Part shown: piece after piece, positions 1,386-11,000 of the stretch
How the letters are laid out: every line of letters begins with the position of its first letter
Numbering within the stretch: the stretch's first letter is position 1
DNA from: Ochromonas danica
Lineage: Eukaryota; Sar; Chrysophyceae; Chromulinales; Chromulinaceae
Assembly: GCA_015146655.1 (NCBI GenBank)
Contig: VKHL01000190.1
Coordinates: 1-49,521 of the forward strand
DNA: 49,521 nucleotides
Reading direction: 5' to 3'
Translations under genes and position numbers: made by a program
The notes under the pieces: generated by a model
Told to the model about the DNA's origin: nothing
The model's input: the letters and a program-made list of their open reading frames with translations, nothing else
The model's database searches: none

Positions 1386-1700
1386 CTCTTCCAGACTGCC
1401 TTGAAGGTGTTTTATCGTAGGTCAATGATTTTCTCCTATCACACAACTTTTCTCATGGCATTTGACAAGGAGAGGGTCGGCTGCTGTTACGGCTGCGTTG
1501 GCGCAACTGCTACCGCTAAGAGGCCAAATGTCCAAATATTAGGCTAAAGCTGAAAGGAAAATGAAAAATGAAAAGTGTCTTCAAGAGAACTGAAGAAGTG
1601 AATGAAGTTTGAGGAGTAAATCTGTGAAAGATATGATTGTACAGCAGTGAATGCTATTCGATGACTCAGTGTCTTGCTCTCGCCGTCACAATTGAAGAAG

Positions 1701-3254
1701 ATGAAGGTGCCAGTCGAAAGCTTTCTGTTTTGGGGTCTAATAGGAGCGTATGCTTTGGTGCTTGGAGAAGCTGGATCGAATAGAAGAATTGATGCCTCGA
1801 CGACCTTTTCCTCCACTTTGGCGGTGGGCTTGGCGGCTCCTAATTGCACTTGTACCTGCTCTTGCACTTTGCCCATCTGCCCAACGTCCGCACCAACACT
1901 ACTGCCCACCGTTTCACCAAGTCTTTCACCTACCGCATTGCCAAGTTTCCCGCCAACCCTTTTACCCAGTGTGACGCCATCTGTTTCCCCGACCACAAGC
2001 CCTTCGGCCACACCATCTGTCTTCCCAACCACAAGCCCTACAGTCACACCATCTGTCTTCCCAACCACAAGCCCTTCAGCCACACCATCTGTCTTCCCAA
2101 CCACAAGCCCTACAGCCACACCATCTGTCTTCCCAACCACAAGCCCTACAGCCACACCATCTGTCTTCCCAACCACAAGCCCTTCAGCCACACCATCTGT
2201 CTTCCCAACCACAAGCCCTACAGCCACACCATCTGTTTCCCCAAGCAGTGCGCCTTCATTTATCCCTTCCTTGCCGCCCAGTGCTCTGCCAACAGTGGAA
2301 CCTTCCTCTGCCACCCCGAGTGAGACTCCAAGTGCTGCTCCGACTGTCTCACCCTCTGTTTTACCTACAGCCGGTCCAACTGTTTCTCCGACGATAAGCC
2401 CTTCAGCCACACCATCTGTTTCACCAAGCAGTGCGCCTTCGTTCATCCCTTCCTTGCCGCCCAGTGCTCTGCCAACAGTGGAACCTTCCTCTGCCACCCC
2501 GAGTGAGACTCCAAGTGCTGCTCCGACTGTCTCACCCTCTGTTTTACCTACAGCCGGTCCAACTGTTTCTCCGACGATAAGCCCTTCAGCCACACCATCT
2601 GTTTCACCAAGCAGTGCGCCTTCGTTCATCCCTTCCTTGCCGCCCAGTGCTCTGCCAACAGTGGAACCTTCCTCTGCCACCCCGAGTGAGACTCCAAGTG
2701 CTGCTCCGACTGTCTCACCCTCTGTTTTACCTACAGCCGGTCCAACTGTTTCTCCGACGATAAGCCCTTCAGCCACACCATCTGTTTCACCAAGCAGTGC
2801 GCCTTCGTTCATCCCTTCCTTGCCGCCCAGTGCTCTGCCAACAGTGGAACCTTCCTCTGCCACCCCGAGTGAGACTCCAAGTGCTGCTCCGACTGTCTCA
2901 CCCTCTGTTTTACCTACAGCCGGTCCAACTGTCTCACCATCAATAGTGTCTCCATCTGCAAGCCCTACCTTGCGGCCCACACTTTCCCCGACGATTTCTC
3001 CTTCAGTAATACCCTCCAGAGCTCCTATTAGCTCTCAGCCCACTTCTTCTCCGACTGCCACTCCAACAGCTACCTACACGATATTTGTACCGGCTCCCAC
3101 CAGCACTCCTACTGGGGTTCCAACCACTGAATTTGAGCCGACCATTCCCCCCTCCTTAACTCCCACCACTGGCTCATTGGGCACGACACCCCGGCCCAGT
3201 GTGAGTCCGTCACGCAGTGCGAGTCAGAAGCCATGGTGGTGGTTCCGGTCTTAA
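1701..3254 (+). CDS. Secreted or cell-surface Ser/Thr/Pro-rich repeat protein
   Basis: One open exon of 517 codons from the ATG at 1701. This start is preferred to the in-frame upstream start at 1674 because it places a signal peptide (MKVPVESFLFWGLIGAYALVLG) at the N terminus. A short Cys cluster (C-T-C-T-C-S-C-T) follows, then almost only S/T/P/A/V. There are seven 12-residue repeats of the type TPSVFPTTSPTA, then four 61-residue repeats, then a less regular S/T/P tail ending in K-P-W-W-W-F-R-S. Proteins of this kind are common in stramenopile and other algal genomes as secreted, probably heavily O-glycosylated wall or mucilage proteins; that role is inference. AATAAA at 3338-3343 could serve polyadenylation. 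A long open reverse frame over the repeats is a by-product of the codon pattern. A related gene lies at 21419-23646. Confidence 0.75.
   Translation: MKVPVESFLFWGLIGAYALVLGEAGSNRRIDASTTFSSTLAVGLAAPNCTCTCSCTLPICPTSAPTLLPTVSPSLSPTALPSFPPTLLPSVTPSVSPTTSPSATPSVFPTTSPTVTPSVFPTTSPSATPSVFPTTSPTATPSVFPTTSPTATPSVFPTTSPSATPSVFPTTSPTATPSVSPSSAPSFIPSLPPSALPTVEPSSATPSETPSAAPTVSPSVLPTAGPTVSPTISPSATPSVSPSSAPSFIPSLPPSALPTVEPSSATPSETPSAAPTVSPSVLPTAGPTVSPTISPSATPSVSPSSAPSFIPSLPPSALPTVEPSSATPSETPSAAPTVSPSVLPTAGPTVSPTISPSATPSVSPSSAPSFIPSLPPSALPTVEPSSATPSETPSAAPTVSPSVLPTAGPTVSPSIVSPSASPTLRPTLSPTISPSVIPSRAPISSQPTSSPTATPTATYTIFVPAPTSTPTGVPTTEFEPTIPPSLTPTTGSLGTTPRPSVSPSRSASQKPWWWFRS
1979..2234 (+). repeat. 36-bp tandem repeat, about 7 copies, coding
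   Basis: Seven imperfect copies of a 36-bp unit inside the S/T/P-rich gene, each encoding 12 residues (TPSVFPTTSPSA or TPSVFPTTSPTA). The period is a multiple of three, so copy-number change keeps the frame. Confidence 0.9.
2235..2935 (+). repeat. 183-bp tandem repeat, about 4 copies, coding
   Basis: Units begin at 2235, 2418, 2601 and 2784 (period 183 bp, 61 codons) and are nearly identical, with single-base differences mainly in the first copy. The last unit is truncated where the sequence diverges near 2935. Near-identity suggests recent expansion or homogenisation. Confidence 0.9.
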
Positions 3255-5800: not shown

Positions 5801-7511
5801 TCACCCAGTGGTCCTGCTACCTATATGTACGTCAGGAGGCAACGTGCTATCTCCGCTTGGCAGAGGAGCACCTGACACTGCAGGCACACAAGTCGAACCA
5901 CTCAAACTCACCCCCGATGAGGGATTAGAACCACTCATGGGGTTGGAATTCAGCGGGGAGAGTCCACTGGGTACTTTCTCATGTTCTGTGCCGGGTTCCC
6001 CTTCCGACAACGATGCTTGTCTTTGTTGGTTTGACATTCTGGACATCCGAATAGTCTCGATGAACTTCTGCAACGTGAAGGGTTTTGCCAGAAAGTAGTC
6101 CATGCCTACACAAAACCCAATAAGAACAAAAAGCACCATCAGCATAGAAAGAAAAGAGAAGATCTCACCAGCTTCCATCGCCTTAGTTCGCGTTTCTTCG
6201 TCAATGTTTGTGCTGATCCCGATGATGAGTTGATGATAATGGGCGGCAGTTAAGTTGGGCTTGCGATAATTCAGCTCGTAAGAAGCCAACTTGCTTCCCA
6301 TGTTGTAATTGGTTCTGTTGGAATTATCAACCCCACCTGCCGCTTCTTCCTCTCCCTCCTCGCGTTTCTGGCTCAGATCCTTGCGACTGAAGTCTCCTTC
6401 AGAAGAGCTGATAGAAGAAAGGTCATCAGAGGGAGAACTAAGATGATTATTATTGCGTTCAAACTCTCGAAAGAGACGAACAGTTTCGAAGCCGTCCATG
6501 ACAGGCATGTTGATATCGATCAGCACCACATCGTATGGTCGCGACTTCATCAATTGTAGCGCCACCTGTCCGTTATGTGCTCTCTCCACATGATGTCCAT
6601 CTTTCTCCAAAGTAAGACCAGTGAGTTTGAGGGTCACCAAAGAATCGTCGACTATCAATATATCGGGGTAGATGTCTGAGCATGTGGCGGGATTGGTTGA
6701 TATCAGGCGGCCAGAGTTGTTTGCACTGTTCACACTCACTGTATCATTGCCGCTTTCTTTCATATTCGGTGTGGAAGACTGGCCATGAGGAGTCAGAGTT
6801 CCTACTGATCGACCGCTGTTAGCATTCGTGACGCCAGTGGACTTGGGCGACGTACGATAGACACGCGACTGCTTCTCGCGCATCTTCTCTTGCTCCAGCA
6901 GAGTGTCCTGCCATGATTTGTATTGAGGAGAGTGAAGAAATGATTCAAAAGGACGCACAAGGCGAGCAAGGATCTCATTTTCCGCGATGAGCAAGTACTT
7001 CATGATGAGCGAGGCGGGCGCGTTGGCGATGTCGATCTGCCGCAACTTCCCAAGGCAATCCCAAATTAAATATTCATTGTTTTCTGGCTTCTGTCCAAGT
7101 ACTTTAACATTCTCATAAATGACCTTGTAGCGCCAGATTAGCGCGGCAGTGCGAGAGATCATTTGATCTTCCGCCAACTTTTTGATTTCCTCCATGTCCC
7201 GAAAACACACAAGGAAGGGAGCGAAGCCTGCAGCAAAACAAGGGAAACAACGCCTTAAGAAACAAAGTAGTGGCGGGAGGGGAAAAGAAAGCAGCAGAAA
7301 TAATAATACCATCTGTCTCCAGGAACTTTTGGAAAGCAGAGAAAGACTGCTCGGAGCGGCTGAGCATTTTTATTGCCCCCACTTTGGACCGAAAGGAGCG
7401 GGCATCATCTTGGATGCCACTGGATTTGACGGGCGGTAGATGATGAAGCTTGGCATTTATGTTGGCTTCTATGTCAGTATCGTTGATTTTCTTGCCAATG
7501 ACACAACCCAT
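5801..7511 (-). CDS. N-terminally lipidated RGS domain - response-regulator receiver fusion
   Basis: Three exons (7310-7511, 6169-7227, 5801-6105; introns of 82 and 63 nt) give 521 residues. The protein starts M-G-C-V-I-G-K-K, a fit to N-myristoylation at Gly2 and palmitoylation at Cys3. Residues about 55-175 resemble an RGS domain (F-L-E-T-D-G-F-A-P-F-L, D-M-E-E-I-K-K-L, E-S-F-L-H-S-P-Q-Y). RGS domains speed GTP hydrolysis by G-alpha subunits. After a Ser/Asn-rich linker comes a receiver domain from about residue 255: acidic pair in I-L-I-V-D-D (D261/D262), phospho-acceptor Asp in V-L-I-D-I-N-M-P (about D305), and Lys in F-L-A-K-P-F (about K428). All receiver catalytic residues are present. 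A low-complexity insert of about 70 residues separates the third and fourth receiver segments. An intron falls just before M-D-Y-F-L-A-K-P-F. The receiver is near certain; the RGS call is good but by eye only. Confidence 0.85.
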
Positions 7512-8031
7512 TATTGTCTTGCTATGAACGCTGTCTGCTGAAAAAATCAATGAATGAACATACTCTTTCCACTAGCAGAAATCAGGCAAGAAGCACCAAG
7601 GAGGACGACAGAAATGCTGACCAATTAGTATAAGCGAGCAGGCAGTAGACGAGGTTAATGAAGGAAACTTCTTCTTGTCTCCTCCTCCATGACACGGACA
7701 GACAGACAGAGACAGCGCCGCCTCGCCCCCATTGCCCACACACACACTCAGCACTCACACTCACCCACTGGCACTGGCACTGGCACTGGCACTGGCACTG
7801 GCACTGGCACTGGCACTGGCACACTCACGCAGACTGCAACAATCCGTTGACAAGTTAAGAAACACGTTTCTCCTTCTCTTGGCAGAGTGTTCTTTGCCAC
7901 TGCTGAGCGTTTCAATCTCTTGGCCTTGTTGGTGAAATCAAGTCAATTGACAAGACAAGATCTCAGATCTGGTCTATCAATACTCTAGTTCAATAGCTAA
8001 GGTGATCCTTTTCGTCGAGTGGGAGCTCACA
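7512..8031. other. Divergent promoter region between RGS-receiver gene and DNAI4-like gene
   Basis: A 520-bp spacer between two genes transcribed away from each other, so it must hold both promoters. It contains CAC/CTGGCA simple repeats in its middle. Short reverse and forward frames made of Cys-Gln or Trp-His repeats are products of that simple sequence. Confidence 0.5.
7767..7822 (+). repeat. Hexanucleotide microsatellite (ACTGGC)9
   Basis: Nine uninterrupted copies of ACTGGC plus two further bases, preceded by a CACT/CACA-rich stretch. It sits in the middle of the divergent spacer. Confidence 0.95.
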
Positions 8032-11000
8032 ATGGCATCGAAAGCACGATTTAATCAGCCCTTGTCGGCCAGCTCGAGCTCCACCAACAATGCGGCCAAA
8101 AACACGCGCGTGTCTGTGGGAGCTTCAGGTCAGCCTCGCAGCGAGGGGCTCTGCAATACCCGCTTTTGTCTCCTTTAGCCTGTCAATAATGCGTGGTACT
8201 ACTCTTGCGTGAGCAGGGATGGGCTCAAAGCGGACGGTCAACAAGGACACGATGGCCAGCGCTGCGACGGGCGCGAGTGGTCCGAAGTCTGGAGGGCGAG
8301 TGCAGATCATCTTCAACGGCAAGATCGCCACTCCTCAGTCTCTGCTCCCGCGCAAGTCTGATCGCATGGCGAGTGGCGAGAGTGGCAGCAGGAAGAACAA
8401 GTCCGCGCTGCCCGTCAAGCCGCAGACCATCGACGAGACTGGGTCAGACAATGCCGACCGCGTCAACCCGTCAGGCCTCACCTCCAAACTCTCCAACAAG
8501 CGCAATGAGCTCACCAGCGAGTCTCGCTCTGGAGGAAGCAAGTTCGCCCTCGCGCTCAAGTCGGCCAAGGTGGTGACGGAGGAGAATGTGACGATTTTCC
8601 TCTCCGAGACACCCACAGAGTGTCTCTTCCACATGCCCTCCTTCATCGCCGCCACAGACACAAGAGACTTCATCCAGATCGAGGAGAAGAACAACAAGTA
8701 TGAGAACGTCATCAAGTCGCACAAGAATGTCGATTCGTTCTCTTCTCGGCCAACTCAAACCAAGAACAATCCCCTGAAGAATCAAAATGAGATGGCAGCT
8801 CCCAATGCCTTCCGAGAGGTTGGCTCCCAGGCTATTTCCTATGAGATCAAAGACGAGACTGCTTCCTCCTCTGCGGGGCAGACAGAAGCGGATTTGGCGG
8901 TGAATCTCGCAGTGGCAGGAGAAGGAGACGACGACCTGGCAGGATTGACTTCCCACGTGAAGAAGTTCATCTCGGATACTGTGGGAGTTGCCTTGGCTAC
9001 TCCTGGATGTCTCTTGGATACAACCCATGCAGTCAAACCTCCAGCGCCTGGCGAGGCGAGAGAAGCGCGACCTCGCGGTGGGGCAGGAGGCAAGAATCGA
9101 TCCATGCTCTCTGTGAGTAAGCATGGATCCACAGCCAATGCTGCCTTCTCCGAGGCAGGAGGAAGTGATGACGACGCGACTCATGGTGGAAGTGTCTACG
9201 CGGCACACAAATCTGTCACACAAGCGGGCCCAGCGCACGGCGCGTCCAACACTTCGTCAAACAACAACAACAGCGGAGATGTCGCCATTCGGTCGGGAAG
9301 CAAGGTGAATGTCTCGCAAAGTAATGCTGATAACAGCAATATGGACAGTGACAATGATGGCGGAGGAAGTGGTCGACCGTACACCTTCACTGAGGAGGAC
9401 ACGCTGGCCATTCTACGCGAGGCCGAGACCAAGCGAGTGCTCAGCTCTCCTTCTCTCCTCAAGCGCCTCCACATGATTGAGCGCGCTATACAACAGAACG
9501 CTAACTACCGTGCTCAACTTGACTATCGTGACTTGCCAGATATCTCTCCTCTTGTCCTGCTCTCGCCCGATCGCGCCAAGCTGGTCGAAGGCGGCGACGC
9601 GCTATTTGGTGGAGGCGGAATAGGTGGCATTGGAGGGAAGGCATCGCTAGGGCTCAAGCGAGGTTTGATGGATCGCACCAAGTCGATCAGCTACAATTCT
9701 CATGGCTTGGCGAGTGAGAATTCCCAGCACTTTGACATCGCCTCCGTGCACAGCCAGGATGACATTTCTCTGTCCAGCAAGAATAACCCCAACGCCGCCA
9801 CTGCTGCGGGAGGCAAAGGAGAAAGCGGTGCTTCTGGAGATAATGGTGGTACAAAAATCAAGAAGTTGTTCAGCTATAGCAACTCGGAGCTCATCAAAGA
9901 TCGTGCGGTGACAGCCATGGCTTGGAATCGAGTGAGCACAGACCTGCTCGCCGTGGGCTACGGCCGCACGACGGACACACTGCTGAGCATTAATGCTGTT
10001 GCCTCTATGGTGGGTGTGAGTAATAATGACTCCCTTTCCGATGAGTCACACGAAGGATTGGTGCTGTTTTGGTCTCTTCGCAATCCAGACTATCCAGAGA
10101 AGATTCTGCGCACGTCCCACTTCGTCACTGCCCTGGAGTTCTCCAAGCAGCACCCTATGATTCTTGCCGTGGGCTTATCCAATGGTGATGTAAATATCTA
10201 TGACGTCAAAAGAGAAGGTGCGAATTGGGGGGTTCCCATGGAGTCCTCGGCTGGAATGAGTGGTGGCCATCTTTACCCTATCTGGCAGTTGAAATGGATT
10301 ATAAAAGGTGTGGAGCGCTTGGAAACGCTTGTGACTATCTCAACAGATGGTCGAGTGCTGGAATGGAATCTCAAGAAGGGTCTGGTGATGTCCACATTGA
10401 TGCAATTGAAGAAGTCCGGCACAGGCGAAGGCTGGATTTCGAACAGTTCCGCTGGCCTTTGCTTCGACTTCCACCCTTCCGATCCCAGTCAATACATTAC
10501 TGGTACAGAGGATGGTAGTCTCTATCGGTGTTCTATTAGCTATAATGAGCAGTACTTGGAAACCTATGCCAATCATGAAGGGCCAGTGTATCGCATCCGC
10601 TTCAGCCCGCGCTGGTCCAACATCTTTCTCACCTGCTCGGCGGATTGGAATATGCATCTCTACCATATGGCACACAAGACACCACTACTTACAATGCGCG
10701 CAACTGCGGAGAATGCGCCCGTGCAGGATGTGGCCTGGTCTCCTGACAACAGCACTGTCTTTGCTTGTGTCACCGCTGATGCCAAGCTACAAATTTGGGA
10801 TCTTTCTACTTCGTCCATTGACCCTGTTGTTGTTCTAGACATTGGGACGATCGAGGATCGTGTTTCCGAGGAGAACGAAGAAGCTAAAGGTGCAGACGAA
10901 GAAGCCACGCCGGGATCGCCAACATCAGCTCCTCCACGATTTGATACCTCCGCTTATGGAATTCCTGATCTTAATGCCTCGCCTGTCATGAGGTTGTTGA

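Follow-up and report, generated by a model that had tools for sequence, protein, structure and literature searches.

RegA of Dictyostelium, in which a receiver is fused to a cAMP phosphodiesterase and is fed by a kinase and RdeA, is by analogy a worked precedent for a kinase-Hpt-receiver chain that ends in a non-DNA-binding output (PMC11988041). The gene described here would resemble RegA in that a protein fusion lets a chain of histidine kinase, Hpt and receiver act upon a further eukaryotic signalling system (PMC11988041). A second likeness is to helmchrome (PMC10967245) and the RGS-LOV proteins, whose RGS domain is joined straight to a domain for environmental input. A survey of four diatoms reports a full RGS domain only for Thalassiosira pseudonana (PMC3727952). 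No description of an RGS-receiver fusion was found among the full-text matches listed, a body of literature from which subscription papers are mostly absent, and the same domain order may exist elsewhere, unreported or reported.

The gene lies on the minus strand of the window (the whole 49,521-nucleotide stretch of Ochromonas danica DNA that was analysed), where it runs from 7511 to 5801 and, by its splice model, consists of three exons separated by two GT-AG introns and encodes 521 residues, all in agreement with the coordinates, strand, exon number and length of the original prediction. Exon 1 (7310..7511) encodes the acylation-type start M1-G2-C3 and the first part of an RGS-like domain, to residue 67/68, and ends at the GT-AG intron 1 (7228..7309, 82 nt). 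Exon 2 (6169..7227) is one open frame of 352 codons that holds the remaining and larger part of the RGS-like domain, a linker and most of a receiver. Intron 2 (6106..6168, 63 nt, GT-AG) is itself open in frame; its removal restores the receiver sequence by joining EAG to MDYFLAKPF, and its retention would insert 21 mostly hydrophobic residues ahead of the last receiver strand. Exon 3 (5801..6105) supplies that strand and the helix with K428, followed by a Ser/Pro/Gly-rich tail and the stop. The RGS-homology domain (6896..7385, about residues 43-178) is thus split by intron 1 and the receiver (6038..6664, about residues 256-443) by intron 2, all of these features being on the minus strand. Since exon 2 alone carries most of both domains, their join is independent of the splice prediction, and the claim that an RGS-like part and a receiver are fused in one gene holds.

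A truncated copy of the gene is found on contig C55 (about 64802-66132), where it is 89.6% identical at the DNA level over window 6283-7654. This copy has decayed, with stops, indels and a change of D305 to Tyr; it aligns across exon 1, retains intron 1 and keeps the RGS-receiver order, and the end of the receiver could not be matched there. The two copies differ at 20 of 371 first, 22 of 370 second and 43 of 368 third codon positions, with an uncorrected ratio of nonsynonymous to synonymous differences of 0.34, which is the substitution pattern of a coding gene. The third-position excess indicates that, during some of the period after the duplication, one or both copies were evolving as coding sequence. 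Intron 1 differs at 5 of 82 positions and the 5' flank at 18 of 146; with 5 of 82, the intron has diverged no further than the first two codon positions, which counts against our reading. It could be argued that an erroneous gene model or assembly has merged two genes, or that the locus is a pseudogene, given that the model was drawn from the DNA sequence alone. However, a single unbroken exon reaches from one domain into the other, their order recurs on contig C55, and differences are twice as frequent at third codon positions as at the first two, so that an artefact is hardly credible. The fusion gene is real.

The fusion gene is arranged head to head with a gene resembling axonemal dynein intermediate chain 4 (window 7511-8032), the two start codons being 521 nt apart if the dynein gene starts at 8032, as we infer, and the two genes possibly share a promoter. 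Together with 47 light-harvesting matching pieces in the genome, this axonemal dynein gene makes the organism look both photosynthetic and flagellate. Elsewhere in the window, an open frame at 1665-3254 consists of Ser/Pro/Thr-rich repeats of the SPSxSPT type in long, near-identical units.

The C-terminal part of the protein matches Pfam Response_reg (PF00072) at 2.5e-22 and 79.6 bits, against a curated cut-off of 30.2, and all of the phosphotransfer residues are present, namely the acidic pair D261 and D262, the predicted phospho-acceptor D305 (codon at 6515..6517, minus strand), S406 and K428. A complete receiver with both acidic residues, the phospho-acceptor Asp and the Lys had been claimed from the start, and judged by this profile match and these residues its identity is beyond doubt. 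Some 76 inserted residues (325-400) precede its fourth strand. When the receiver was searched as protein against the alga's own genome (31.2 Mb in 337 contigs), at least 125 matching pieces were returned, the fusion gene and its copy included. The best ten other matches share 36-40% identity and lie in open frames of 556-657 residues; the receiver frames that were read belong mostly to hybrid histidine kinases, many of which appear by eye to have an insert at the same place. The C-terminal receivers of these kinases are the best matches to the receiver of the fusion protein, whereas the histidine kinase part that they possess is absent from it. The many receiver loci matched at 'receiver 1-68' were considered as further RGS-receiver fusions and rejected, those read being mostly hybrid kinases. 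In a tree of 32 rows, two of which are the receiver of the fusion gene (one of these entries reading through intron 2), L017 and L020 stand apart from the other 30; the bootstrap values had yet to stabilize. The receiver of the fusion gene falls among kinase receivers, L010 and L016, with its nearest kin not separated out, and L010, which is one of the 30, is not a kinase.

The N-terminal part is far harder to recognize. A Pfam scan of the full 521-residue protein with a maximum E of 10 did not report RGS (PF00615), although the filters of HMMER drop most matches above about 0.1 despite that setting. When the domain was cut out and compared with Pfam, RGS came out best, but its 15.2 bits (E 0.029) fall short of the 23.9-bit cut-off. 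The designation of an RGS domain by Pfam was accordingly rejected for want of a Pfam call, and a profile of RGS domains from the same genome was used instead, together with controls. Of 12 stretches in the genome that match RGS, seven Pfam-matched domains went into the profile, which leaves out three on C20 and those on C94 and C150. Against this profile, the domain of the fusion gene scores 28.4 bits, and 1000 shuffles of it (921 scored) reach at most 7.3 bits. A stand-alone relative with an MGC start (C48:73053-73556), 31% identical over residues 29-195, scores 23.8 bits, with a shuffle maximum of 13.0 bits (1000 shuffles, 976 scored). Reversed, the two sequences score 0.2 and 0.1, respectively. 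Leave-one-out profiles give 21.6-33.9 bits for the fusion-gene domain and 15.5-24.3 bits for the C48 paralogue, and without the hand-spliced member from C3 the former still has 26.3 bits. Among 422 open frames from the loci examined and the window, scores above 5 bits occur only in RGS genes and the family of the fusion gene; the best frame outside them has 4.6 bits and is perhaps an RGS fragment, and the next has 4.4. In addition, hhalign gives 95.6% over 121 columns, so the similarity to confirmed RGS domains extends through the entire domain.

Several other results could suggest that the N-terminal part is an unrelated helical domain that merely resembles RGS. Besides the subthreshold or absent Pfam match, the C48 relative likewise gave no RGS match in a Pfam scan with a maximum E of 10, which we count against our reading. 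A PDB profile search with both paralogues was unspecific: it returned five matches at E up to 10, among which RGS3 (0.72) ranked fourth, after two LAGLIDADG endonucleases (0.21) and Tas protein (0.6), and because of this rank it lends no support by itself. The structure predicted for the exon-2 part only (residues 69-190) is all-helical but, at a mean pLDDT of 56.9, too poor to interpret, and it does not confirm the fold. Nevertheless, mere resemblance is very unlikely, given the distance between the profile score and its shuffle maximum, the co-linear alignment over 121 columns and the low scores of all frames outside the RGS genes and the fusion-gene family. We conclude that the N-terminal part is by sequence a real but very divergent RGS-homology domain, presumably with the nine-helix RGS fold. 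The homology that had been proposed is thereby upheld, while the expected match to an RGS profile was obtained only with a profile of the genome's own relatives and not with that of Pfam alone. Outside its own genome, the protein has no confirmed relatives among 70 and 5 pattern matches from viral contigs or among 97 from prokaryote genomes.

RGS homology does not by itself imply GAP activity, and the RGS-homology domain of the GRK type, for example, need not be a GAP. The canonical contacts with G-alpha, which from RGS4 we take to be an E-N pair in helix 4 and the D and R of DSxPRF, were located by alignment with RGS17 and RGS9. In the fusion protein the helix-4 pair is replaced by P71-F72, the contact D by R159 or P160 (two alignments differ) and the R of DSxPRF by S163, and of these contacts the C48 paralogue retains only the Glu, the N, D and R being gone. 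In contrast, several Pfam-positive RGS domains of the same genome keep more of the contacts, with E-E-N and PRF in the one on C3 and D and PRF in the one on C49. The domain of the fusion gene thus reads as an RGS-homology domain and not as a canonical GAP, and the proposal that it switches off G-alpha is not supported as it was put. A true GAP switched by phosphorylation of the receiver, such that the phosphorelay sets the duration of a heterotrimeric G-protein signal, would fit the RGS homology, the two G-alphas of the genome with their switch I glycine (TTG/TSG) and the fact that this alga links other RGS domains to sensors or kinases (as in the RGS-PAS genes on C49 and C28 and the frames with kinase motifs, identified by eye, on C21 and C162). 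Since the canonical contacts are replaced, this is one possibility but not the best-supported one, and we consider it unlikely. For the same reason, the loss of the usual contacts, we favor a docking or scaffold role over a classical GAP.

The RGS genes of this alga are of several kinds. L001 and L002 (C49) and L056 (C28) hold RGS-PAS genes; one has repeated RGS and PAS domains, as helmchrome does, and the other starts with MGASSS. On C21 (L003) and C162 (L005), RGS frames that start with MGC contain what look by eye like protein-kinase motifs in the same frame and so resemble G-protein-coupled receptor kinases. Beside the RGS gene on C3, on the minus strand (L004), a second frame starts with MGSAAS; it scores 4.6 bits with the RGS profile and to the eye resembles the beginning of a further RGS domain.

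The receiver rows of the genome searches were merged by hand into 86 loci. Since the search works exon by exon and gives a score to none but its best candidates, this number and the kinase counts are minimum values. A kinase signature (a G2 box or one of six HATPase rows chosen from 38) lies within 2.5 kb upstream on the same strand at 72 of the at least 86 loci. The G2 box pattern occurs at 74 places in the genome, five of them without a listed receiver, and the same pattern read backwards at four. Of the 14 loci without a signature, two are the fusion gene and its broken copy; judged by eye, seven resemble kinases, degenerate kinases or the ends of such genes (on C4, C39, C48, C52 twice, C105 and at C146:57796), three on contig C12 showed no kinase part in the frame read, and the last two are short pieces on C146 outside the frames read. 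Among the at least 86 loci, the intact kinase-free receivers that were read are only that of the fusion gene and the three on C12. A receiver on C12 (L020, C12:324302-324637) is fused to an AhpC/TSA-like, peroxiredoxin-type domain in a protein with an M-G-N start, with Pfam values of 1.1e-17 and 3.1e-06. The kinase set includes, among others, L009, L011-L015, L019, L021, L025-L027 and L033-L037, many of them with long receiver inserts.

All of these kinases must act through some output, and there are several dozen of them. A single Hpt was detected in the genome, on contig C62, and confirmed at 5.4e-10. Given this Hpt, the two G-alphas and the dozens of hybrid kinases, both pathways exist in the genome. 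In an alga where roughly 70 or more candidate hybrid kinases face a single detected Hpt and receivers lacking a kinase are few, the fusion protein would be one of few exits from the phosphorelay. The disparity between one Hpt match and dozens of hybrid kinases, together with the lost G-alpha contacts, would also suit a receiver that serves as a phosphate sink or Hpt tether at the membrane, with an RGS-like part that merely positions it and has no role in G-protein signaling. However, the C48 relative stands alone, with no receiver found in the surrounding 9.5 kb when the fusion protein was used as query, suggesting that the RGS-like part has a function of its own; a mere sink or tether is therefore quite unlikely.

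N-myristoylation calls for an M-G start with a small residue at position 6 and no Pro at position 7, a pattern that the MGCVIGKK start of the fusion protein fits by eye. This start is at the first ATG of the frame, with an in-frame TAG 21 codons upstream, so the acylation-type M-G-C start that had been claimed is borne out. Met-Gly starts were read in the fusion gene and in the RGS genes on C21, C162, C3, C28 and C48, and can be surmised from a separate upstream frame for those on C20 and C150. Cys occupies position 3 in five of the eight. The RGS gene on C1 is an exception, and those on C49 and C94 were outside the starts surveyed. Both G-alphas also begin with Met-Gly. That several RGS genes and both G-alphas share this start makes acylation of the fusion protein more believable, and its M-G-C is predicted to be both myristoylated and palmitoylated.

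Taken together, we suggest, as the best and a moderately probable account, that the fusion gene encodes a membrane-tethered, doubly acylated response regulator that is fed by the Hpt and has the RGS-homology domain as its output. A hybrid kinase would pass phosphate to the Hpt that serves the many hybrid kinases of the genome, and from there it would reach D305 of a protein held at the membrane by its acylated M-G-C terminus. Phosphorylation of D305 may then alter whether the RGS-homology domain binds a partner at the membrane, which could be G-alpha, contacted through another face, or another membrane signaling protein; the domain would thus be a docking or scaffold module under regulation, and not a classical GAP. 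If it acts on G-alpha or on another membrane switch, the fusion would be a direct molecular link from phosphorelay to G-protein, wiring a bacterial-type phosphate receiver and eukaryotic G-protein signaling into one protein. It is possible, although doubtful, that this represents a new class of response regulator, through which, as one of few exits, a His-Asp phosphorelay acts directly on G-protein signaling at the membrane via an RGS-homology output.

In RegA, the receiver precedes an output that is an enzyme, and the protein is listed as cytosolic (PMC11988041), whereas in the fusion protein the RGS-homology output precedes the receiver and the start is of the acylation type. Proteins of the GRK type likewise have an RGS-homology domain, as do the MGC-started frames with kinase motifs of this alga, but GRKs carry a kinase domain where the fusion protein has a receiver. 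The RGS-PAS gene on C49 with its repeats is likely a helmchrome-type protein in the same genome. In helmchrome the input is a light-sensing LOV (PAS) domain, whereas in the fusion protein it is a phosphate receiver, joined to an RGS part that is more divergent than those of helmchrome and the RGS-LOV proteins.
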